Below, one piece after another: positions 13,358-36,204 of a stretch of DNA of 52,544 nucleotides (position 1 is the first letter of the stretch; every line of letters begins with the position of its first letter). This DNA is from a virus. The notes under the pieces were generated by a model. It had not been told where the DNA came from. It did not search any database and saw only the letters and a program-made list of their open reading frames with translations. The DNA is taken from positions 1-52,544 of the IMG/VR virus record IMGVR_UViG_3300013188_000002; one strand, written 5' to 3'. The translations under genes were made by a program, and so were the position numbers.

Positions 13358-16300
13358 ATGGCAAAAGCAGGACTTAAATCTTTCGGAAGCCCTACACTCA
13401 GCGCGATGGATTTGGAGCCACTAGGCAACCCTTACGATGTTGCACCTGACATCGGGATGGGCAACCTCCTAGGTAGCAGGGAAGCTCTTACTAACGAAGC
13501 AGACAGTGTCTTTAATCAAGCCATGTCTCAGTTCTCTATGCCTGAGATGAAGCGGCCTGCGCCTACTGGCCCTAATGTTCTGTTCGATCCATCAGCTAAC
13601 AAGATGTTTGTAAACGGGTCGTTGTTTGACCTTGACGACGCTGACGCAGCCGTAAAATCCAAAGGTTTTTTAACTGGCCCGCGCCAAGAGCCGCCGTCAG
13701 GCAACTGGCAGCGTGTTACACCTGCTGAATATGGCAGGTACTATAAGTCTATTACTGACCCCACACTTAGCCGTAGATTCTCTGAGAACGTTGATATTGG
13801 TATGGCCAACCTGCGATCTTTGTTTGGCGCAGGTGCTGTATTGCTTGGCGCTGACGAATACGGCCTTGGGGTTATGGAGCGTGCAGATGAAGTTATCCGC
13901 AAAAAATCACCGTTTGCAGGTGAAGCTACAGACATCGGCTTTGGAGATGAAGATCTCGGCCCTGTAGAGTGGTTTGTAGGCGTACTGGGCGCACAAGGCC
14001 CGATGCTTCTTGAGACCATTGCTGCAGCAGGTGTAGGTTTTGTCCTAGGTTCTGCCACTGCAGGGCCAGGTTTGGGTTCCGCAGCAGGTACAGTCGGTGG
14101 CCTGTTTGGTAAGACAGCGTTTAAGAAAGCTGTAAAAGAAGCTGCAGAAGAATATGCAACAATTAAAGCTAGGGACGGCAAGGCAGCGGCCAAAGCCTTC
14201 CTGAAGACTGACAAGGGTAAGACGCTCAAGCGTGCGTCCGGTGCTGCAGGTGCCGTTGGCCTTAGCTATGTCAACAACTTTGGTATTGCATCGTCTGATG
14301 TGTACTCAGAGCTATTGGAGTCAGGCGTAGATGTAAACGATTTTAACGCTAAGATGACTGCACTTACAGCCGCAGTGCCATACGCTGCACTCGATACCAT
14401 CCCTGAGTTTGTCGTAGGTGCTAAGCTTTTTGGTGGGTTGCGTGCAGGATCAAAGGGCGGACGCTTGCGTCGTGGTGCTAAAGGTGCAGGAGTAGGTGCT
14501 GTCTTAGAAGGCACTACTGAAGCAGGCCAAGAAGGCATTATTATGGGTGCAACTAGCGCCTACACTGGACGCGAGTATGAAAGCGATGAGGTACTTAATC
14601 GACTGGTCAACTCCTTTGCCGCAGGCGCAGCTATTGGTGGCACCATTGGTAGTGTTACCAATCTAAAAACCAATAAGCCAGCTGACCTACTACAAGGCAC
14701 GGCTAATGAACAAGAAACACAACAGGATGAAGGCCCAGCGCAGACTGAAATGTTTGCAGAGGACACTGACTTTGGTACTGCTCCTGAGGTTGACCCAGAT
14801 ATAGCCGCACTACGCGCACAAGACGAGGCGCTAAGACAAGAGGTAGTGGCCGATCTTGAGTTGGATAGAGAAAATGAAGCTATTAGGCAGGAGATTGCAG
14901 GTGTGGCAAACATGCCACCAGCACCAGTCATCCCTGCACAACGAGAAGCTGAGATCCAAGAAGAAATAGGTCGCCGTGAGCGGGCAGAAGCCGACCGCCT
15001 AGACAGAACTATGGAGGCAGCGCAGCCTCTTTCTGACCGTACAGGTGGCGTGCAGCCTGACCAAGGTGATTTGTTTGCTCTTGATGGCCCTGCTTATACA
15101 CCCCCACCGGCTCCACCGGCTCCACCAACTCCTCCACAGCCTGTGGATAACGTTGTGGAAAGTATTGAGCAAGTTGCACAACAGCAACCACAAGCACAGC
15201 CAAACTTGTTGCAGCAACGTATGCAAGAAGCAGCGGCAAGACAGCGTGAGCAAGAAGCACAAGCTGAAGCTCGCAGACAGGAAGATGAACGCATAGAACG
15301 GAATAACCGCGAAGTCGAAAACGCACTGGCTTTACAGCAGGCGCAAAACGAAATCGCGGCTTATGAGGCGGAGCAGGCTGGCGTGACGCAGCCCGAACTT
15401 CCTCCCGTGGCAGCTCCGGTACAGACGAATAATCTCCCTACTGTACCAGTTCCTCCTGCTCCGCCTCGCCAGTTAAACTTGTTCCGTGGCCAAGTAAAGC
15501 TACCAAGAATATCTAAAGCGGAACAAAAAGCTATCAACAAAGCTAATCGTCTACGCCGCAAGCAAGAGCAAGAAGCACAGAAGGCAGCTGAAGAAGCAGC
15601 ACGCCCAATGACTCCAGCGGAAGCTCGTGCAGCAGGGCAAGGTATCCTACTTACACAGCGTGGCGAACCGTCAGTTGCTGCACTCAAGGCAGCGGGCACC
15701 GTAGCACCGACAACCACACCAGAACTTGTTCAGACAACACCTGCTGAAGAAGCCGTCGTTGCGCAGCAGCAAGAAATCAACAGGCTCCAGCAACAAGTAC
15801 AGGAGCTTTCTGCAGCTCGTACAGAGGAAAGCAGTTCCGCCGCTGAGTATAAAACTACTAAACAAGAGGAGTTTGACGTTGCTGAGCGCGGAATGCCTGC
15901 GCGAGAGCTTATGGGTCAGTATTGGCAAAATCAATGGAACAACGCTAATTCTATCGCAGAGGTAGATAAAGTTCTTGCCGATATGAAGCAAGTCAGAGAA
16001 GAGGTAACACAAAATGTACAAGAGCAAAGCACAGAAAACGTGGATGGAAGCGAACAGGCCAGACCTAGCGAAGCAGTTCGAAGCGGAAACACCCAAGAAC
16101 GCGCAGCTGCCGCAGTCGTTGAGTCCGAGAAGCGCCTCAGAGAAGCGGAGGATAGCAAGGCAGCTAGCCGCCCTGCGGAAACAGAAGCAGCCGTTCGGGA
16201 AGATAGCGGTCAACAAGGTGTACAGGAAGATAGCGTACAAGGGGGAACTCAGCTAGATCCAGACTCTGAGCAGGCCATCGCCGAAGAGCTAACCTATCAG

Positions 16301-19300
16301 TTTGATTTACAAGAAGCCATAGGGGAGCTACGTGGTATTGCTGTATCCCTGTTGGATTACGCATACTGGGCTGCTGCACCTAGTGGCACAAGTAACGCAG
16401 CAGATGACTACAGAGCTGCGCGGGCCACAGCTAAAGCCTATGTAGATAAAGCGTTTACAGACCCTGAGTATTTTACAGAAGCTCAACTAAAAATCTTAGA
16501 CGAACAGTTTGTTAAGTTTGCTACATATGAAACGGACACCCGCTCGTCTACGCAACCGTGGTTTGAGTATGCTGCACGTCGTGGTCTTGTAGAAAGAATC
16601 GCTAATCCTGACCCAAAGAAAGGTATAAGGATTACAGGTGCGCCGTACGAAAAGATGAGCAAGGCAGCAGCCAAGGCTGCTAACGTATCTCCGGCCCGCA
16701 GTGAAGACACCACAAACCTTAACGAAGCAGCGACAGCAGCTGATGGCAAAGTTACTGGCGGCGGTAGGTATTTCAAGATCGACGACAACACCGAGATCAC
16801 ACAGCCTCTGGATAAGCTGCGTGTAACTGCTATCGCAAAGAACGCTATCCGTAAGCTGAAGACCAAGCCCACTGTGACCGTGGTCAAAGACCAAAACGAT
16901 CTGCGTGAGAACCACCCAGAGCTATTCAAGCGGGCTATGGAGTCTCGTCCTAACGGCGACTTTGAGTTCACACCTGCTGGCGGTTTCTCTGTTGGCGATC
17001 AAGTCATTCTGTTCAGCGATAATATCAAGACCGAGAAGCAGGCTCGCTTCATCATTGCCCACGAAACTATGGGCCACTTTGGTCTGGGTGCTTTCTTAGG
17101 CAAACCGCAGCTAGAAACTGTGATGGATAACATCTATCAAGATGACTCTAGCGTACGAGTGAAAGCTGACCGCCGTATGGAAATGTACGGTGAAAGCAAA
17201 GCCGAAGCAGTTGAAGAAGTCATTGCCAATATGGCAGCTGACCTAGACGCACACCTTATCAAGCGGATCTGGTACGCCATCAAGGATGCTCTTGAGACTA
17301 TGGGCATGGAGTTTGAGGATAGTCTTGCCAGGTATATGCTAAGACAATCACGCAGGAACTTGTTGCAGGGTGGTAGCGGCCTTGTAAGTATGCAAGAGCT
17401 TAGCAAAAACTTAGAAAGTTTAAGAACTGACAACACGTTGGGGCGGTTTAATGTTGTTGACGACACTGCAAATGCCGCATCACGGGCGCTTTCGTCACAT
17501 GCCTACACCAAGCGTGCAGGCGATACAGGCGGACTGAAAGGTCTAGCACAGACATTCAAAAAGATTAAAGATGTAGAGAACATCCGCGACTTTAGTGTAT
17601 GGCTTGGCTCACTGGCTGAAAACGTGCAGTCACTGGACAATGCAGCTACCAGAAGTGACGGCCTGCAGCAGGTGTTTAACATCTTCCAAGCTAGAGCCAA
17701 CCGTTCACGCCGCCACCTCGCGACCTACGAGTCTATGACTTCGTACTCACATCAAGCGTTTAACGGGCCAACGAAAGAAGAACTAGAAAAAGCTGGCGAG
17801 CTTCTTGCCCATGCTGCACTACACAAGCAGGACATGATTACTGATGAGCAAATCAGAGACTTGTCAGTAGAAGTAGGCACTGATCAGAACGGCGATCCGA
17901 TTAAGGTAAGCGATCTCGTGGTTATGGAGAACGGTGTAGCTGGCATCAACCGTGAGCTGTTTGAAGCAGCAGTAGCGGCAGGCAATGTTACACGCGAACA
18001 GTTTGCTCAGGGACTTGCTGTTACTCTGGGCGACCAAGACCAGAAAGTATTTGCTACTCAAACCTATACACCAGCAGAAGCTATCACAGATAACGAGTGG
18101 CGCATCTACACCGAGCAACGCAAAGCAGTAAATCAAGCAGCACTGGATGTTGTTCGGTCTACAGTAGAGGGTGCAATCGCACAGAAAGATGCCACAATCA
18201 GCGGGTTCAAGAAAGCATACCGCATGTCAGACGCAGACACACAAGTCATGCGGCAGGTCATGGATCGGTATGTAGAGCTGTACCAGAAAGATGCACGCCA
18301 AGAAGGTGGAGCGTTCCAGTACAAAACCGAATCCGTAGAGAATGCAAGAGACTTCCTAAGAGAAATCAATCGTGCGCTATTTGTAAAAGACAAAGTGCAA
18401 GACTTCAAGCAAAGCAAAGGCGACGCAGCCAAGTTCCAAGGCCCAGAGTTCCAAGGTATCATTGATGGCCTGGATTCGCTGTCCGACAAAAACTACACAC
18501 AGAGCCAAGCTAACCGCATTACATCAGCTATTGGTAACTTGTACCTGCTGGATGTTCAGGTAGCTAACGCACAGTTTAACGCCAAGCGTACGATTATGAC
18601 ATCGTATGTACCATTTACTCGCCGTGGCGATCATCAGATCCGCCTTGCTGCTTTCAATGAGAATGGCGATATAGTTCAGCTAGATGAAGTTTGGAAAACT
18701 GTACTGCCATACTACCAAGCACAGGGTCGCGCTGATGCCAGAGAGATTGCAGCAAACTTAGACTCTGAGTTTAGCGACAGAGAGTTCAAGATTATGGACG
18801 CCAACGGGGTTGAGCAAACCGTAACCTTCCGAGCTGTGGCGGAGAAGTCTCGTAAAGGCTCAGTTCTAGGGCAGCAATTTAGTCTCAATGACTTCGTCAA
18901 TACATTGGCTCGTCTTGATGTGAACATAAACCCACAAGAACGTGAACGTATTGTGGAAGCTCTGACAGCGCAGACTCAACGTGCTCGTAGAAGTTTGCAG
19001 AGAGCAGGTGTTAGAGGGTGGGATCGTGATGTCATCCGTAGCACCTCAGAATATCTTGAGATGCAGGGCCACATTGCAGGTCAGGCTTTCTATCGCCACC
19101 GTCTCAATAACATCATGCTTACAGACAGCTTCTGGCGCGGTGACTACAAGCGAGTACAAGACTTGTTTGCTGAGACTCAACGAACAGACTTGTCTCCTGA
19201 AAAGCTACGTCAAGCGCAGACTGAGTACGATAAGTATGCCTACATGTATCAGTACATGGCAGGTGATGGTATGCCACAGGCTGTTAACCGCAAAACTGGC

Positions 19301-21100
19301 AAGCCCATGAAGAACCTCGGCAGAGGTGAAGACTACAGAGGCACAGCACTCGGATTACAGCAGTGGTTTGCGGACGCCGCCAACATCAACAACTCAACTG
19401 AGGACTTGTTGTCAGGCGAGACAGGTTCACAGATTAAGATGTGGACAGTTATCGCTCAGCTTGGCGGTAACTTAGCTACAGCCTTTATCAACATGGCTTC
19501 GATGGCCACTCACAGCATCCCATACCTCGGCACATACAACGAGGCTAGAGGCTTCGGTGGCGGATTCGGTTTGCGTAAGTCAGCGTTTGAGATCCAACGT
19601 GCGGCTTTCCAGATGGGTCGCCCTGCTATGGCAGACTTCACCAAGCTCAGAGACCTCATCAATGACGAGGCGGCTCTGCGTAAGGCAGGTCTGACTAGAG
19701 ATGAAGCTATCTTCCTGACAGACGCCACACAAGAAGGTGTTCTACAGGCGGCACAAGCCAATGCTCTGGTCGGTACGGCTAGAGGCGGTATCCACAGCAA
19801 CAAGCTACAGGCAGGTATCAAACTGTGGATGGGAGCGTTCTCTTATACTGAGCAACTTAACCGTAGATCGACAGCACTGGCGGCTTTCCGTCTGCACAAG
19901 CAACGTGCGGTAGCAGGTTCTCCTGAGTTCACAGCCCTACAACAGAAGCGCAACAAGACTCCAGAGGAGACAGAACAGCTTCAGCAAATGGAAGCTAAGA
20001 TGAACGCTGATGCCACTGAGTTCGCGCGTACAGCGGTGAACACATCACAGGGTGAGTACGGTATGTTTAACCGCCCTGAGATGGCTCGTGGTAACATCGG
20101 TCAATACCTGTTTATCTATAAGCAGTTCTCTATCATCACCATCCAGATGATGAAAGGACTCAGCCCTAAGGGTCGAATCGCGTTTGTCTCTATGCTCCTG
20201 CTTGCATCTGGCCTCAAAGGTATGCCATTCGCAGATGACTTGGCAGACTTGATTGATACGCTCTTGCAGTTCTTCGGAATTAAGAAGGCAAGCGTAGAGC
20301 AATATCTTGTGGAGACAATCGGTGAGTTCGCACCTGACATGCCATTCGACATCAACCTGACTAACATCGCAATGCGTGGTGTCCTTGATCAGATCATGGC
20401 AGGTACATTCTCAACACGTTTGGGTATGGGTGATCTTATCCCTCTGACTGGCGCATTCAAAGCAGGTGCTGATACAGGCCGTGAGATTACTAACTTCTTC
20501 GGGCCAGTCTACTCAGGAATTGAAGGCGCAATAGTTACAGCAGGTAACTTTGCTAGATACGGAGCGCAAACAGTCGGGCTAAGAGATGCTACTATGACAT
20601 TCCCTGAAGTACTGCGTGACGCACCAGTGGCAGGTATCAGAGCTTTGACAGACGCTTACACTTACTACGACTCAGGTGTCATCACTAATGCACAAGGTAA
20701 GGTGATTGATCCGTCAGCTAGCACTGCGGACATCCTGTTCAGAGCCGCAGGGTTCTACCCATCTATTGCTACCAAAGAGAATGATGCTGTACGTCTGACT
20801 AAACAGATGGCCGCTTACGCAAAGCAACTGCACGCAGGGTATAAGGATGCCTACGTCAAAGCCTATATAGAGAAAGACTTCTCTCGTATGCTAGACGTCC
20901 GCCAGATGGTTATGGAGTGGAACCTGATTCACCGTGGTACAGAGTTTGAATTGACAGACTTTAGGCAGAAAGCTGATAGAGCCGCTAAAGCCGCCTCAAT
21001 GCCAACTGCTCAACGCTACCTCAAGACTGCGCCTAAGAACGTGCGTGAAGGTATGCGTGAACTGTTGGACATCTACGGATTGAATGACGAGAAACTCTAG
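13358..21100 (+). CDS. Giant internal virion protein with HExxGH motif and LPD38-like C-terminus (2580 aa)
   Basis: The product has an N-terminal region with hydrophobic glycine-rich stretches (about residues 210-260), then a Pro-rich linker near residue 577 (YTPPPAPPAPP) and long Gln/Ala/Glu-rich coils to ~950. Residues 1235-1240 read HETMGH, the HExxGH zinc-site pattern known from dipeptidyl peptidase III. The C-terminal part (MFNRPEMARGNIGQYLFIYKQF, GLKGMPFADDLADLIDTLL) matches my memory of a large polyvalent-protein-associated domain (LPD38 type). It is probably ejected into the host with the DNA. Its stop overlaps the leftward gene by 4 bp. Confidence 0.65.
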   Translation: MAKAGLKSFGSPTLSAMDLEPLGNPYDVAPDIGMGNLLGSREALTNEADSVFNQAMSQFSMPEMKRPAPTGPNVLFDPSANKMFVNGSLFDLDDADAAVKSKGFLTGPRQEPPSGNWQRVTPAEYGRYYKSITDPTLSRRFSENVDIGMANLRSLFGAGAVLLGADEYGLGVMERADEVIRKKSPFAGEATDIGFGDEDLGPVEWFVGVLGAQGPMLLETIAAAGVGFVLGSATAGPGLGSAAGTVGGLFGKTAFKKAVKEAAEEYATIKARDGKAAAKAFLKTDKGKTLKRASGAAGAVGLSYVNNFGIASSDVYSELLESGVDVNDFNAKMTALTAAVPYAALDTIPEFVVGAKLFGGLRAGSKGGRLRRGAKGAGVGAVLEGTTEAGQEGIIMGATSAYTGREYESDEVLNRLVNSFAAGAAIGGTIGSVTNLKTNKPADLLQGTANEQETQQDEGPAQTEMFAEDTDFGTAPEVDPDIAALRAQDEALRQEVVADLELDRENEAIRQEIAGVANMPPAPVIPAQREAEIQEEIGRRERAEADRLDRTMEAAQPLSDRTGGVQPDQGDLFALDGPAYTPPPAPPAPPTPPQPVDNVVESIEQVAQQQPQAQPNLLQQRMQEAAARQREQEAQAEARRQEDERIERNNREVENALALQQAQNEIAAYEAEQAGVTQPELPPVAAPVQTNNLPTVPVPPAPPRQLNLFRGQVKLPRISKAEQKAINKANRLRRKQEQEAQKAAEEAARPMTPAEARAAGQGILLTQRGEPSVAALKAAGTVAPTTTPELVQTTPAEEAVVAQQQEINRLQQQVQELSAARTEESSSAAEYKTTKQEEFDVAERGMPARELMGQYWQNQWNNANSIAEVDKVLADMKQVREEVTQNVQEQSTENVDGSEQARPSEAVRSGNTQERAAAAVVESEKRLREAEDSKAASRPAETEAAVREDSGQQGVQEDSVQGGTQLDPDSEQAIAEELTYQFDLQEAIGELRGIAVSLLDYAYWAAAPSGTSNAADDYRAARATAKAYVDKAFTDPEYFTEAQLKILDEQFVKFATYETDTRSSTQPWFEYAARRGLVERIANPDPKKGIRITGAPYEKMSKAAAKAANVSPARSEDTTNLNEAATAADGKVTGGGRYFKIDDNTEITQPLDKLRVTAIAKNAIRKLKTKPTVTVVKDQNDLRENHPELFKRAMESRPNGDFEFTPAGGFSVGDQVILFSDNIKTEKQARFIIAHETMGHFGLGAFLGKPQLETVMDNIYQDDSSVRVKADRRMEMYGESKAEAVEEVIANMAADLDAHLIKRIWYAIKDALETMGMEFEDSLARYMLRQSRRNLLQGGSGLVSMQELSKNLESLRTDNTLGRFNVVDDTANAASRALSSHAYTKRAGDTGGLKGLAQTFKKIKDVENIRDFSVWLGSLAENVQSLDNAATRSDGLQQVFNIFQARANRSRRHLATYESMTSYSHQAFNGPTKEELEKAGELLAHAALHKQDMITDEQIRDLSVEVGTDQNGDPIKVSDLVVMENGVAGINRELFEAAVAAGNVTREQFAQGLAVTLGDQDQKVFATQTYTPAEAITDNEWRIYTEQRKAVNQAALDVVRSTVEGAIAQKDATISGFKKAYRMSDADTQVMRQVMDRYVELYQKDARQEGGAFQYKTESVENARDFLREINRALFVKDKVQDFKQSKGDAAKFQGPEFQGIIDGLDSLSDKNYTQSQANRITSAIGNLYLLDVQVANAQFNAKRTIMTSYVPFTRRGDHQIRLAAFNENGDIVQLDEVWKTVLPYYQAQGRADAREIAANLDSEFSDREFKIMDANGVEQTVTFRAVAEKSRKGSVLGQQFSLNDFVNTLARLDVNINPQERERIVEALTAQTQRARRSLQRAGVRGWDRDVIRSTSEYLEMQGHIAGQAFYRHRLNNIMLTDSFWRGDYKRVQDLFAETQRTDLSPEKLRQAQTEYDKYAYMYQYMAGDGMPQAVNRKTGKPMKNLGRGEDYRGTALGLQQWFADAANINNSTEDLLSGETGSQIKMWTVIAQLGGNLATAFINMASMATHSIPYLGTYNEARGFGGGFGLRKSAFEIQRAAFQMGRPAMADFTKLRDLINDEAALRKAGLTRDEAIFLTDATQEGVLQAAQANALVGTARGGIHSNKLQAGIKLWMGAFSYTEQLNRRSTALAAFRLHKQRAVAGSPEFTALQQKRNKTPEETEQLQQMEAKMNADATEFARTAVNTSQGEYGMFNRPEMARGNIGQYLFIYKQFSIITIQMMKGLSPKGRIAFVSMLLLASGLKGMPFADDLADLIDTLLQFFGIKKASVEQYLVETIGEFAPDMPFDINLTNIAMRGVLDQIMAGTFSTRLGMGDLIPLTGAFKAGADTGREITNFFGPVYSGIEGAIVTAGNFARYGAQTVGLRDATMTFPEVLRDAPVAGIRALTDAYTYYDSGVITNAQGKVIDPSASTADILFRAAGFYPSIATKENDAVRLTKQMAAYAKQLHAGYKDAYVKAYIEKDFSRMLDVRQMVMEWNLIHRGTEFELTDFRQKADRAAKAASMPTAQRYLKTAPKNVREGMRELLDIYGLNDEKL

Positions 21101-30589: not shown

Positions 30590-31079
30590 TCTCGTTCTCC
30601 TCAAAGTTACTCTCCTGTAAAGTATACAATGCCACGCCTTTACCGCAGTGTAAAGAGTATTCATTAGCTACACTTACTGCTTGAGCCGCATTAGCCCCCA
30701 TAGCAAGTGCGCCCATTGCGTATTCTTTACCCTCACCGAAAGCCATTGGTGCTTGTAATCTCACAGGTGAGAAGGTTGCTTTACTTTCATGACCATGAAA
30801 GCCTTCATAGACACACAGCCCTTGTTCATCGACAACGATTAGCTGTGCCATAGATGGGGCTATATCCAAGTGCATTCGGTGTTCCCAATCATAACCTCCT
30901 GCAAACCAGTCTCTCAACTGGATGATATATCCCAACATACCAACGCCTGAGACTATACAAACTTTCTTAGTGTCAGGGTGGGTAATATACCAAGCCTTCT
31001 CTGCCTCCCATTTCATAGAGCCATCGTTAGCCTGTTGATCAGTGGCAAGCGACTTACCATCCCATACAATTACTGTCAT
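30579..31079 (-). CDS. Proteasome/HslV-like Ntn hydrolase (166 aa)
   Basis: The ATG at 31079 has GGAGAAAG upstream and starts M-TVIVWDGKSLATDQQ; removal of Met exposes Thr as a possible N-terminal nucleophile. After it, Asp13 and Lys27 fall near the Asp17/Lys33 positions of HslV and proteasome beta subunits. The second half (APMAFGEGKEYAMGALAMGANAAQAVSVANEY) resembles the IGSGG-x-YA-x-AA helix region of HslV. Similar phage proteins exist but I know of no tested activity. Position: zinc-ribbon gene upstream (4-bp overlap), DUF6378 gene downstream. Confidence 0.65.
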   Translation of the reverse strand: MTVIVWDGKSLATDQQANDGSMKWEAEKAWYITHPDTKKVCIVSGVGMLGYIIQLRDWFAGGYDWEHRMHLDIAPSMAQLIVVDEQGLCVYEGFHGHESKATFSPVRLQAPMAFGEGKEYAMGALAMGANAAQAVSVANEYSLHCGKGVALYTLQESNFEENENGS

Positions 31080-32567: not shown

Positions 32568-33242
32568 TTACCTCGTCAGTTTGTTTAGGGTTACAGCAGC
32601 AGTCATACTGTTAAGGTCAACGTCTAGCTCGACCTCAGCTTTCTTACGTTCGACTACCTTCTTGTGACGTTCCTTAGCTTCCTCTGGAACCAAGTCCCAA
32701 AGGGCAGGGAAAGCCTTGAGTGCAGGGGCAAGGGTAGAGTATGTCTCCATCAGCTTGTTGATACCCTCAAGAAACTTCTCTTGCTTAGCCTCTTGTTCGA
32801 ATATCTTACGGACATACTCTTTGAACTCAGGGATTAGCCATGACCAACGGCTGTCATTGTAGTCAGCTTTGTTTGACCGCCACTCTGACTTGAAGCCTGT
32901 AGTCTCTGGATGAAAGTTGTGAGGCCACGGCATAGCCTTGCTGAACTCTAGCCGTACCTCATCACACTCATAAGCGTTGCGTTTGTATTCAGCAGTTTGG
33001 AATACATCTTCTGGTGCGTTGAAGAACCCTGCAAAGTTTATGCTCGACTCTTTCTTCATTGCGTAGTCAGGCAATGCGTTGAACTTTGCAATCACATCAG
33101 CAGGGAAAAAGGACTGATAAAGTTTATCAGCCCAGTGTGCAGGTACATCCGCCTTAGCCTTGTCGATGCTCTCCTTGAACATCGCTCTCGCATTGTTGCG
33201 AATGTTATCTTTAAGTTGATCAGAAAATCTTACAGTAGCCAT
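32568..33242 (-). CDS. Uncharacterised protein downstream of the VWA gene (224 aa)
   Basis: The start lies 3 bp after the VWA gene stop, with GGAGGTATAAG as ribosome site. It opens MATVRFSDQLKDNIRNNARAMF, contains FFPADVIAKFNALPDY and FHPETTGFKSEWRS, and has a charged helical C-terminus (KERHKKVVERKKAEVELDV). I know no domain for it. Position makes it a likely client or partner of the MoxR/VWA pair. Confidence 0.6.
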   Translation of the reverse strand: MATVRFSDQLKDNIRNNARAMFKESIDKAKADVPAHWADKLYQSFFPADVIAKFNALPDYAMKKESSINFAGFFNAPEDVFQTAEYKRNAYECDEVRLEFSKAMPWPHNFHPETTGFKSEWRSNKADYNDSRWSWLIPEFKEYVRKIFEQEAKQEKFLEGINKLMETYSTLAPALKAFPALWDLVPEEAKERHKKVVERKKAEVELDVDLNSMTAAVTLNKLTR

Positions 33243-33245
33243 GTC

Positions 33246-34343
33246 TTATACCTCCATCATTACTACTTCACCGAATGGTGCTTCATTGTCGTGTGTGGAT
33301 ACCCACAGCACAGGATATTCTGGTGCATCACCGAAGTCGTTACAGCACAGGTCAGTTAGAAATACACAAGCGACAGGATTGATGTCGTTGTCTCTCATGT
33401 ATTGAAACACTGGACTGAAAGCTGTACCGCCACCGCCATGCGGCTTGATAACTGGTGCTTCACCTTGTTCGAACACATCGTAGTGACATACTTCTGAATC
33501 GAAGTAGATGATGTGTAGTTTGGATGGGTGATGGTCTTGCTGAACCTTGAGTATCTCTGCCGCATACTGGTCAATCTCTTCTTGCCCGATTGAACCTGAG
33601 CAGTCGATAGCAAACGCCATCTCACCCAATGCCTCGCCTGTGATACTTGGCAGATACATACCTTGCTGTATAAACCTGCGGTTAGGTCTGGCAAATGAAC
33701 GGTCATCAGTCTTGTGCTTGACAATGAACCGCTGAAGTATATCCGCCCAATAGACTTTGGGTTGCAGGATGTTTTCGACAAGACGTTCAAGTCCTGCACT
33801 CATCTTGCCCATCATCTTGGCGGCTTGTGCGGCTTGAGCAACCTTGACCTTCCACTCTGCGGCCTGTTGCTCTAGCTCGGCAGGTGAACCCTCGCCATCC
33901 TGACAATCATCAAGCGGGTCATCCTGCCCCTCTGGTGTGTCTGGCAAGATGTTGTAGATACCATCACTGGTTCCGTTACCTGCATTGTAAATGTCATCAC
34001 TGAGCAGACCGACATCAGGCATCTTGCCGATGTGTTCATCAGTCAGCAACTTGTTGATGACATAATCAGCCGCTTGATTCCACTTACGAGGGTCACGGCT
34101 TTGTCTGCGAAAGTTATGCTCCAACATAGGGTGCATACATTCGTGAGCGATGAGGAACTTTAGCTCCTCATCATTCAACGACTCGCAGAACTCAGGGTTG
34201 AATAGCACCTGCTTGCCGTTAGTAGCGGCAGTAGGTACGTCCTCGCTCAGTTTGAATGGCATGTTCATGGCGACATTGCCTATGAACGGATGCTCAAGCA
34301 CAAGGGCAGTCTTGCCCTTGCTAAGTCGTTTGTTAAGATCCAT
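33246..34343 (-). CDS. DUF2201-like metallopeptidase plus VWA domain protein (365 aa)
   Basis: Residues 60-80 hold FLIAHECMHPMLEHNFR, with HECMH (67-71) as a zinc-binding HExxH motif, as in the DUF2201 N-terminal domain. An acidic linker (DTPEGQDDPLDDCQDGEG) follows. Residues 240-365 form a von Willebrand A-like fold with the MIDAS motif AIDCSGSIG (Asp247, Ser249, Ser251), then GGGGTAFSP and VFLTDLCC. VWA partners of MoxR ATPases deliver or hold substrates for remodelling. Its gene follows the DUF3150-like gene with touching ends, two genes after the MoxR gene. Confidence 0.8.
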   Translation of the reverse strand: MDLNKRLSKGKTALVLEHPFIGNVAMNMPFKLSEDVPTAATNGKQVLFNPEFCESLNDEELKFLIAHECMHPMLEHNFRRQSRDPRKWNQAADYVINKLLTDEHIGKMPDVGLLSDDIYNAGNGTSDGIYNILPDTPEGQDDPLDDCQDGEGSPAELEQQAAEWKVKVAQAAQAAKMMGKMSAGLERLVENILQPKVYWADILQRFIVKHKTDDRSFARPNRRFIQQGMYLPSITGEALGEMAFAIDCSGSIGQEEIDQYAAEILKVQQDHHPSKLHIIYFDSEVCHYDVFEQGEAPVIKPHGGGGTAFSPVFQYMRDNDINPVACVFLTDLCCNDFGDAPEYPVLWVSTHDNEAPFGEVVMMEV

Positions 34344-35194
34344 TAGTTACCTCCCATGAAAGCGCCCATCTTGTCCATGATTGCCTTAGCTTCTGCGGCT
34401 TTATCACGGCGTAAGTCTGGGTCATTACGAAGTGCATCAGGATGATGCTGTGTGAGTGATTGCTCCACCTCAAGACGCATGGCCTCAAGGTTGGGGTCAT
34501 CGGTGAAGTTCAACCGTGACAGGATTGAACATATCTCACGAGTGTTGCCGACCATTGTGTCTTTGAAGCCTTTAGCAGGGTCAGCAAGTGTCTCAGCCAT
34601 GTGCTTGACACGCTCATGCAGTCGGCTCCAAGCCTCATTCATTGCGTTCTGAGCCGCGTCTTGAACTCGTGCTTCCACATCGGAAGTGATACGAGCAAGT
34701 TCCTCGTCTGCAATGTCAACTCGGAAGTCGCCACTTGGAACAGGCATGATGCCCATGTCTATACTGAACTTAGCCGCGACCTCATCCAACGTGGGATAGT
34801 CTGCGTCATTGTATAGGTGGCCAAGAAAGCGTTGAGCGTCATACTTGAGCGACTCATACTCAGTCTTGAACTGATTGACGAGCATCTGCCACTCATACTT
34901 TTCCTTGCGGAAGTCAGTCATGAAAGACAGATAGTTTGCACTAGGCAAGATTTGTGTACCGTCAATGCCCCACGGCAACGTGTTGGCGTAGTACTTCTTG
35001 CGGATAGCAGTTGTTTTCTGATGAACATTGTTAAGGTAATCGTTCATCGGAAGCAGAGACTTGTTGTATCTACCTGCTGAGTTTACCGCAGAGTTTGCAG
35101 AGGCCACCTGTTCGGTGGCTCTCTTGTCGTATTTACGAGCAGTCCACTGCGACACACGCAGTTGAACAAGTAATGCTTTGTCTGAAAGTTTCAT
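34343..35194 (-). CDS. DUF3150-like protein of the MoxR/VWA module (283 aa)
   Basis: The ATG follows GGAGGTAACT. Residues ~70-92 read NTLPWGIDGTQILPSANYLSFM, followed by a helical stretch (RKEKYEWQMLVNQFKTEYESL), then LYNDADYPTLDEVAAKFSIDMGIMPVPSGDFRVDI. This 'LPW..G..lLP..NY', 'DYP', 'F....PVP..GDFRV' pattern fits what I recall of DUF3150, a family found beside MoxR and VWA genes. Its role is unknown. Encoded between the MoxR and VWA genes, it probably bridges or regulates them. Confidence 0.65.
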   Translation of the reverse strand: MKLSDKALLVQLRVSQWTARKYDKRATEQVASANSAVNSAGRYNKSLLPMNDYLNNVHQKTTAIRKKYYANTLPWGIDGTQILPSANYLSFMTDFRKEKYEWQMLVNQFKTEYESLKYDAQRFLGHLYNDADYPTLDEVAAKFSIDMGIMPVPSGDFRVDIADEELARITSDVEARVQDAAQNAMNEAWSRLHERVKHMAETLADPAKGFKDTMVGNTREICSILSRLNFTDDPNLEAMRLEVEQSLTQHHPDALRNDPDLRRDKAAEAKAIMDKMGAFMGGN

Positions 35195-35208
35195 AGTTAC
35201 CTCCGTTT

Positions 35209-36204
35209 CTAGAACAAGACATCTTGATGGTTAATCGCCCACTTAGTGAACGCTTGAGTCGAAGCCAACTCTGGCTTCTTCCGTGCCGCATAGGACACAG
35301 ATAAGACTGAGAACTCTGGCGGCATACGCTCTGCATAAGTGCAGACACGCTCAAAGTTACTCTCAGTTGCTCGCTCTGCGATTGCACCAGACAGTGCATA
35401 CAGAGTAGCAGGGTCATCAGGAACATCCGCAGTAGTTGGATTCATGATGATATTGTCAGGGTTAGGTAGCTTACGATAGATGCGTACAAAGCCAACGAAC
35501 TCTGCCGCCGCACCTTCACCAACAGCACCCTTGAAGCACTCGTACTCAGCCTCGGCACTAACGACACCAAGCACTGCACTGACACCCTCGACCCATGAAC
35601 GTGGCGTTGGATTCTGGTCACGCTGAGGATCGAAATCATGTAGCAGGTTAGGACGGAATCGAAGGAACGCTACTACCTCGGTAGCAACATCGTTCTCAAT
35701 CATCCACTTGGTTGAGTCATCAAGGTGAGTGTCAAGTTCGATGACAGTCTCACGGTTAGCGAGGTGAGATAGGATACGATTAGCACCTGCCCTGTCCTCT
35801 TGGCGGTTGCCAGTAGTGACGACCATCCAACCGTCTTTCATCTTGACGCCATGCAATGTCCTAGCCTGTTCGATATTGGCTAGCACTTTCTGCAAGTCAT
35901 TACCTGCTTGGTTACGGTCATCGAAACAGATGATACCCTCGTCAGGTATATCGTCACGACCTACCGCAGGAAACCAATCGGGTAGCTTGTAAGCAAAGTT
36001 ATCATCCCCAGTTGCCATGTCGGGAATACCGAAGTCCTCGACTAGCATGGTAGGCATGTGTTTCTCGATGTAGCCAATGGACAACTGCTGAGAAGCTGTT
36101 CTCACAAGGCTGGTCTTACCGCCACCTGGAGGGCCAACGATAGACAGTGGACGTTTGATAGGAAATAAATCCTTGATAGTTTGAAGAACTAATTCGGCTC
36201 GCAT
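35209..36204 (-). CDS. MoxR-type AAA+ ATPase (331 aa)
   Basis: I chose the ATG at 36204 (GGGAG upstream; TAATG overlap with the previous gene) over the ATG at 36219. Walker A is GPPGGGKTS (residues 24-32). Walker B is IICFDDRNQAG with Asp95-Asp96, so the usual second acidic residue Glu is Asp here. Sensor 1 is VVTTGNRQ (Asn133) and a finger-like arginine lies in ILSHLANR (Arg151). MoxR enzymes remodel proteins with a VWA partner; that partner is encoded two genes later. The same pair is conserved in N4-like phages (gp24/gp25) with no known role. Confidence 0.8.
   Translation of the reverse strand: MRAELVLQTIKDLFPIKRPLSIVGPPGGGKTSLVRTASQQLSIGYIEKHMPTMLVEDFGIPDMATGDDNFAYKLPDWFPAVGRDDIPDEGIICFDDRNQAGNDLQKVLANIEQARTLHGVKMKDGWMVVTTGNRQEDRAGANRILSHLANRETVIELDTHLDDSTKWMIENDVATEVVAFLRFRPNLLHDFDPQRDQNPTPRSWVEGVSAVLGVVSAEAEYECFKGAVGEGAAAEFVGFVRIYRKLPNPDNIIMNPTTADVPDDPATLYALSGAIAERATESNFERVCTYAERMPPEFSVLSVSYAARKKPELASTQAFTKWAINHQDVLF

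Follow-up and report, generated by a model that had tools for sequence, protein, structure and literature searches.

A MoxR-class ATPase, DUF3150-like protein and DUF2201 zincin-VWA protein encoded together in phages, plasmids and bacterial genomes: a candidate three-subunit protein-remodelling machine

NorQ/NorD, RavA/ViaA and CbbQ/CbbO are chaperone pairs made up of a MoxR ATPase and a MIDAS-bearing VWA protein. Canonical DUF3150 genes adjoin genes for an AAA_5 (CobS-like) ATPase and a CobT-like VWA protein, and phage N4 and its relatives (Schitoviridae) encode an ATPase and a zincin-VWA protein, gp24/gp25, near their replication genes. NorQ/NorD was described as an enzyme-maturation factor (PMC9976466). 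In jumbo phages, a MoxR AAA+ ATPase was found paired with a vWA domain fused to an N-terminal metallopeptidase, and virion assembly was proposed for the pair with the archaeal ATV tail as precedent (Iyer et al., 2021, PMC7824862). The text of Kaur et al. (2020) on MoxR-vWA ternary conflict systems contained neither DUF2201 nor DUF3150, and the literature searched yielded no paper on DUF3150.

The window analysed here, IMG/VR record IMGVR_UViG_3300013188_000002 (52,544 nucleotides), is a podovirus-like genome of about 52 kb, and carriers of the operon form a group of uncultured bacterial viruses, mostly marine. Minus-strand genes at positions 36204-31289 (Table 1) encode a MoxR-class AAA+ ATPase, a middle protein (MID) and a DUF2201 zincin-VWA protein, together referred to as the triad, followed by proteins U224 and U294. 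The operon sits in the replication arm, next to the genes for DNA polymerase, helicase and primase; the structural genes are encoded on the other strand. The original prediction of four same-strand genes from the ATPase to U224 was borne out; they are co-directional as described, but the "one overlapping operon" has a single overlap, of 1 base between MID and VWA, and the remaining gaps are 14 and 3 bases. All four are conserved, yet the conserved unit is longer, continuing beyond position 32568 through a 131-aa ORF to U294 and often to an HslV-like peptidase. Because the U224-U294 spacing differed among loci, the 131-aa ORF was placed outside the conserved core. The upstream 62-aa ORF likely shares a transcript with the ATPase. 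Searches for RNA families and tRNAs found none, promoter-like sites showed no excess over shuffled sequence, and 15 terminator-like sites were counted against a mean of 9.3; the operon ends were set without either type of site.

Table 1. Features of the operon and its immediate neighbours in the window
Feature	Length (aa)	Positions	Strand	Remarks
62-aa ORF	62	36392-36204	-	1-base overlap with the start of the ATPase gene; conserved in 43/80 loci
MoxR-class AAA+ ATPase	331	36204-35209	-	N4 gp24 family, phrog_1297
MID	283	35194-34343	-	DUF3150-superfamily middle subunit (predicted)
Zincin-VWA protein	365	34343-33246	-	DUF2201_N + DUF2201 VWA; N4 gp25 family, phrog_1314
U224	224	33242-32568	-	Nmad5-like
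131-aa ORF	131	32565-32170	-	predicted coiled-coil; outside conserved core
U294	294	32173-31289	-	conserved, family not assigned
HslV-like (proteasome-fold) peptidase	166 (from ATG at 31079)	31079-30579	-	frequent, non-universal neighbour

The assignment of the window ATPase to the MoxR class of AAA+ proteins, made from sequence homology, agreed with the original prediction. The protein matched phrog_1297 (E 8.5e-67) and its profile found midasin as the best PDB match (4e-37), while the score against Pfam AAA_5 was 20.5 bits, below the gathering cut-off of 22. The Walker A motif GPPGGGKTS was located at residues 24-32, with G27, G29, K30 and T31 invariant in 183 copies of the lineage. The Walker B motif is Asp-Asp (CFDD, D95-D96) rather than the Asp-Glu of the MoxR class. 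All 186 copies of the lineage share this Asp-Asp, as do 36 triad copies from plasmids and bacteria, and no ATPase outside the triads was seen with it; other ATPases of the family, including the N4 type, have DE.

The VWA protein was identified by homology as a DUF2201 zincin-VWA protein, again as predicted, with matches above cut-off to DUF2201_N (PF13203, E 2.2e-46, 159.1 bits) and the DUF2201 VWA domain (PF09967, E 4.7e-24, 85.3 bits) and a match to phrog_1314 (E 2.8e-101). The label "HNH endonuclease" that PHROG and RefSeq give this family was rejected as a mislabel. HECMH corresponds to H67-E68-C-M-H71, with H76, N89 and D93 likewise invariant, and the MIDAS to D247-C-S249-G-S251 plus T307 and D331. 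The catalytic Glu was lost in 5 of 85 bacterial and plasmid proteins, an observation that counts against the machine reading given below. In 180-217 related viral copies the motif residues of the operon were invariant or nearly so, with HExxH and MIDAS kept in the VWA protein. These residues, the DUF2201 and PHROG matches and purifying selection across the five operon genes (pN/pS 0.07-0.37) argue that the operon features are not due to chance.

The PHROG matches identify the window ATPase and VWA protein, at the level of homology, as an already known pair of the N4 gp24/gp25 type, a kinship that had been proposed. Identity between the window VWA protein and the copies of N4-like phages was roughly 22-34%, and MID, present in the window lineage, was not detected in the annotated N4-like loci examined. 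In the trees, the window ATPase and VWA protein grouped with plasmid and bacterial triads, not with Schitoviridae (moderate support, 80/89 and 88/95), and the triad lineage was separate from the N4 and jumbo-phage pairs in both trees with moderate support. The jumbo-phage pair shares the domain architecture of the window proteins, but the available part of that report mentions no third subunit (PMC7824862). The ATPase/VWA pair is thus not undescribed; the candidate three-part ATPase/MID/VWA machine was not found in the literature searched.

MID is largely built of long helices, apart from a small beta portion at the N-terminus. Direct searches of Pfam, PHROG and NCBIfam were uninformative, the window copy having no significant Pfam match and falling short of the gathering score of DUF3150 (PF11348); apolipoprotein and spike matches were discarded as coiled-coil artefacts. 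Kinship became visible through relatives: 8 of 25 matched DUF3150 (best 4.1e-7), and hhalign of MID against DUF3150 gave 96.4% and E 1.4e-9 over 187 columns. MID is therefore assigned by profile homology as a distant DUF3150 homologue, in line with the predicted DUF3150-like middle protein. Its gene stands between the ATPase and VWA genes, a position that fits the DUF3150 superfamily, and MID probably behaves as a third subunit of a putative complex with them. The DUF3150/CobS/CobT-like set has the same three-part layout with a middle protein homologous to MID, but its VWA protein is CobT-like without a DUF2201_N match, whereas the window protein has this domain. The three genes and the zincin fusion also set the operon apart, by what is known of the families, from NorQ/NorD, RavA/ViaA and CbbQ/CbbO.

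Co-occurrence in related phages, proposed as a check of the original prediction, was found. The co-directional order ATPase, MID, VWA was present in 42/42 viral loci fetched with MID and having enough flank, in 34 of which U224 and U294 followed; all five genes stood in that order in 34/34 loci fetched with U224, and the triad was present in 29/29 fetched with VWA. No opposite-strand arrangement was seen in about 200 loci. VWA preceded MID in L044, L225 and L232, and U294 preceded the ATPase in L038, with linkage kept in each case. Synteny among the marine phages is partly due to shared descent. The three-gene core is not phage-specific, contrary to the prediction of a phage complex, because it was also found on at least 40 plasmids (44 plasmid records matched MID, 40 of them over at least 80% of its length) and, by a search of genome contigs with the VWA alignment, in Burkholderiales, Acidobacteria and Chitinophaga. 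Some plasmid triads lie near PRTRC and transfer genes. PRTRC was rejected as an obligate partner since four other PRTRC plasmids had no annotated triad nearby; the association remains a lead.

U224 had been called unknown, but its family matches Nmad5 (PF18757) in 47 of 66 members (best 1.2e-7), although the window copy alone gave no match. Foldseek aligned the AlphaFold model of U224 with some viral proteins named Nmad5 (E 3e-4, TM 0.36). U224 is tentatively placed by family-level similarity in an Nmad5-like family, putatively associated with nucleotide modification; unlike Nmad5 phage proteins, it is embedded in an AAA+/VWA operon. The N4-like Vibrio phage 1.097.O carries a bona fide Nmad5 gene (1.4e-12) between its ATPase and VWA genes, a closeness that may be chance because other genes intervene. 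Profiles of U224 and U294 found no companion in plasmid, bacterial and annotated phage loci, except that U224 marginally matched (E 6e-4) the Nmad5 gene in Vibrio phage phi 1. For U294, direct scans against Pfam, PHROG and NCBIfam were uninformative. The HslV-like peptidase has an N-terminal nucleophile (T or S, 131/131) with D (131/131) and K (131/131), and its PDB matches were all proteasome-type but weak. Since Foldseek matched the models of MID and U224 to no solved fold in the PDB, the roles of these two proteins are guesses.

We give a probability of about 0.5 to the reading that the operon encodes a three-subunit AAA+/MIDAS protein-remodelling machine with dedicated companions. The triad proteins belong by homology to families that are found together and co-directional in phages, plasmids and bacterial genomes, and they keep their active-site motifs; a chaperone or remodelling role, as first proposed, is the one best suggested by the families. 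Most likely the remodeller is ATP-driven and acts in the replication phase, with a hypothetical complex and substrate. The ATPase would assemble into a MoxR/midasin-type hexameric ring, on which the VWA protein would dock through its MIDAS, its zincin domain presenting or cleaving the substrate. The helical MID may bridge the motor and the VWA protein or recognise the substrate, and ATP hydrolysis would pull on or remodel the target. The replication-arm location and the same triad on plasmids point to DNA replication or modification proteins, or host proteins hindering the invading replicon, as a guess at the targets, while U224 and U294 may be clients or adaptors.

Virion assembly or maturation, with the machine folding, assembling or cleaving structural proteins, is an unlikely explanation for this operon. 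The proposal for jumbo phages and its ATV precedent favour it (Iyer et al., 2021, PMC7824862), and the location of the PBECO4 pair beside virion genes and the ESI-MS/MS tag of the annotated PA5oct ATPase fit a virion role in those phages. However, no virion genes were annotated around the triads of conjugative plasmids and bacterial chromosomes, and its presence on plasmids, which have no virions, makes it unlikely that the triad serves virion assembly alone. The window operon also lies in the replication arm, opposite in strand to the structural genes, and the triad lineage branches apart, with moderate support, from the N4 and jumbo-phage pairs.

Counter-defence or host takeover, in which the zincin-VWA protein and the HslV-like peptidase would destroy or disarm host proteins early in infection, appears doubtful. 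One operon holding two protease folds is consistent with it, as are the PRTRC and transfer genes close to plasmid copies and the host defences that phages and plasmids meet alike. Against this, PADLOC returned only a weak ATPase match for the operon, the HslV-like gene was undetected in about one third of the loci, and the strongly conserved core of ATPase, MID and VWA evolves slowly (pN/pS 0.07-0.22), unlike host-directed effectors, which typically change fast.

It is rather improbable that the ATPase and VWA protein insert metal into or activate one phage enzyme, likeliest U224 or U294, in the manner of NorQ/NorD (PMC9976466) or CobS/CobT. Known MoxR/VWA pairs do so, and U224 and U294 co-occur with the triad in 34/34 loci of the lineage, but neither protein showed a motif of metal enzymes. 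In plasmids, bacteria and cyanophage MinM2, the triad had no detected U224 or U294 next to it, so these proteins cannot be its general client. That the genes form no functional complex, and replication-arm genes merely keep their order by descent within the one phage lineage that supplies most viral loci, is very improbable, given that the triad recurs on plasmids and across three bacterial phyla, shuffled in order but still linked, and given the parallel DUF3150/CobS/CobT arrangement.

More tentatively, ATPase/DUF3150/VWA sets may represent an undescribed AAA+ machine with three subunits that is general to mobile DNA and exists in two parallel versions, with a zincin-VWA or a CobT-like VWA protein. 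Such a machine would serve phages, conjugative plasmids and integrated elements in remodelling complexes of replication or host defence, and on many plasmids it would accompany the ubiquitin-like PRTRC conjugation system. Beyond the known pair, the new elements are MID as a probable recurrent third subunit, the Nmad5-like U224, the lineage-fixed Asp-Asp Walker B and the frequent HslV-like peptidase. A functional context is now available for DUF3150, and an Nmad5-like protein is locked to the triad in one phage lineage. What the ATPase/VWA pair does in N4-type phages, and in the many jumbo phages that keep it, is a long-standing question; the presence of the triad on virion-less plasmids weakens the guess that the machine exists solely for virion assembly, and the triad offers testable hypotheses for its function.

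The four-gene module of the original prediction, comprising a MoxR-class AAA+ ATPase, a middle protein (MID), a VWA protein and a 224-aa protein (U224), was confirmed in the window (a viral record 52,544 bases long), and its interpretation was supported in part. The minus-strand arm that carries it also has a helicase gene and a gene for a primase-like protein. The opposite strand codes for tail fibre, internal virion protein, portal-type protein and terminase, and the structural arm holds a 2580-aa ORF (13358-21100, +). The relatives of the portal protein and of the polymerase suggest a podovirus-like phage, with the Rhizobium RHph_TM, Roseobacter CRP-9 and Pelagibacter HTVC115P phages as distant kin.

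Features of the minus-strand arm of the window, in gene order
Feature	Coordinates	Strand	Position
62-aa ORF		-	first, before ATPase
ATPase	36204-35209	-	
MID	35194-34343	-	
VWA protein	34343-33246	-	
U224	33242-32568	-	
131-aa coiled-coil ORF		-	between U224 and U294
U294 (294 aa)	32173-31289	-	
HslV-like ORF	31079-30579	-	
DUF6378 protein		-	after HslV-like ORF
Family A DNA polymerase		-	after DUF6378 protein

The VWA protein clearly belonged to DUF2201 (PF13203, 2.2e-46; PF09967, 4.7e-24), a zincin-VWA family widely mislabelled as HNH endonuclease (phrog_1314, RefSeq phage annotations). The catalytic Glu of HExxH was lost (ATxxH, HTxxH) and MIDAS kept in related loci L091 (9935-11221), L210, L218, L221 and L224; the Glu-less proteins come from a Variovorax plasmid and Desulfovibrionaceae/Desulfobacterium. 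The ATPase narrowly missed the AAA_5 cut-off and matched phrog_1297 (8.5e-67), and midasin was the top solved structure for its family profile (4e-37). MID alone gave no significant family match. DUF3150 was matched by 8/25 MID relatives (best 4e-7), and profile-profile comparison with true DUF3150 proteins gave 96.4% (E 1.4e-9, 187 columns); the predicted DUF3150 assignment is therefore correct at the superfamily level.

The Asp-Asp Walker B of the ATPase, flagged as unusual in the original prediction, was seen only beside MID (222 copies, all with MID alongside; 0/29 ATPases without it), and a DE Walker B was kept in 19 copies that have MID. Among viral loci fetched with MID, all 42 with sufficient flank had it between the ATPase and VWA genes (the three together being the triad), and in about 200 loci none showed an opposite-strand arrangement. 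A MID match was present in 44 plasmid records, and the regions read placed the triad on plasmids of Burkholderia, Cupriavidus, Paraburkholderia, Variovorax, Simplicispira and Rhodovastum. It also occurred in genomes of Burkholderiales, Rhodocyclus, Acidobacteria and Chitinophaga (where VWA precedes MID) and, interrupted by small ORFs, in cyanophage MinM2. True DUF3150 genes were found in 7/349 Pseudomonadota genomes and one desulfovibrio; where flanks were readable, several adjoined an AAA_5 ATPase and some a CobT-like VWA gene. In the VWA and ATPase trees, with moderate support, the window lineage grouped with plasmid and bacterial triads rather than with N4-like or jumbo-phage pairs. Both trees placed the triad of L229, a MAG contig binned as an actinobacterium, inside the clade of marine phages, and L229 is probably a phage contig within that bin.

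U224, previously called unknown, belongs to a family of which 47/66 members matched Nmad5 (best 1.2e-7). Its AlphaFold model was confident (pLDDT 89) and matched viral proteins, some named Nmad5, at low TM-score. All five genes (the triad, U224 and U294) kept an identical order in 34/34 U224-fetched loci with at least 4 kb upstream, drawn from the nearest 80 of 326 relatives, so triad-free relatives may exist beyond these. No U294 relatives were recognisable outside the window lineage. In the N4-like Vibrio phage 1.097.O, a clear Nmad5 gene (1.4e-12; gp74, L273:6869-7465, annotated hypothetical) sits between the ATPase and VWA genes.

The gene after U294 often encodes an HslV-like, proteasome-fold peptidase, which shares the operon of the AAA+ ATPase in 82/124 related loci (about two thirds); in several loci its start overlaps the U294 stop by 4 bases. 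The window ORF matched phrog_1040 (1.2e-21); its PDB matches were weak and exclusively proteasome-type, and the nucleophile Thr/Ser, Asp and Lys were invariant in 131 copies. No paper in the literature searched named DUF3150. The ATPase/VWA pair is previously known; it is the three-subunit form, its phage, plasmid and bacterial spread, and its Nmad5-like and HslV-like companions that appear undescribed in that literature.

On Burkholderiaceae plasmids and in several Acidobacteria, the triad lay some kilobases downstream of PRTRC genes encoding ThiF and an E2-like protein (Prok-E2_D; L090:1-3562, L195:690-3673, L351:13784-19709). By our count, 23/30 MID plasmids among the matches listed were also within the best 60 PRTRC plasmids listed, at a distance of roughly 7-24 kb in the pairs compared; on an Aromatoleum plasmid a canonical DUF3150 gene adjoins PRTRC. 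Shared carriage on one backbone type is an adequate explanation, since four other PRTRC plasmids had no annotated triad nearby. RNase H genes recurred next to or within triad or pair loci of Acidobacteria (L195:9229-10370, followed by a Sipho_Gp157 gene), the Variovorax plasmid (L091:7272-7772) and Thermus phage phiFa (L085:5279-5776).

An Nmad5-like client of the triad would be interesting, not explanatory, for two reasons. DNA modification by Nmad5 is a prediction only. Escape of a Dhillonvirus from Tmn defence followed point mutation of nmad5, not its deletion (PMC11846954).

The families suggest that an AAA+ ring and its MIDAS-bearing partner would together remodel a protein target. The zincin motif was invariant across 214 viral VWA copies of the window lineage, and therefore proteolysis or zinc binding matters there; mechanical remodelling is the likelier shared core, because five bacterial or plasmid copies lost the catalytic Glu yet kept VWA. 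Virion assembly and structural-protein processing, proposed for the jumbo-phage pair by Iyer et al. (2021; PMC7824862), is a less probable main role for the triad, as plasmids carrying it have no virions and the window operon sits in the replication arm. On the same grounds we favour a reading in which the triad would act in the replication phase, remodelling replication-, modification- or host-derived complexes.
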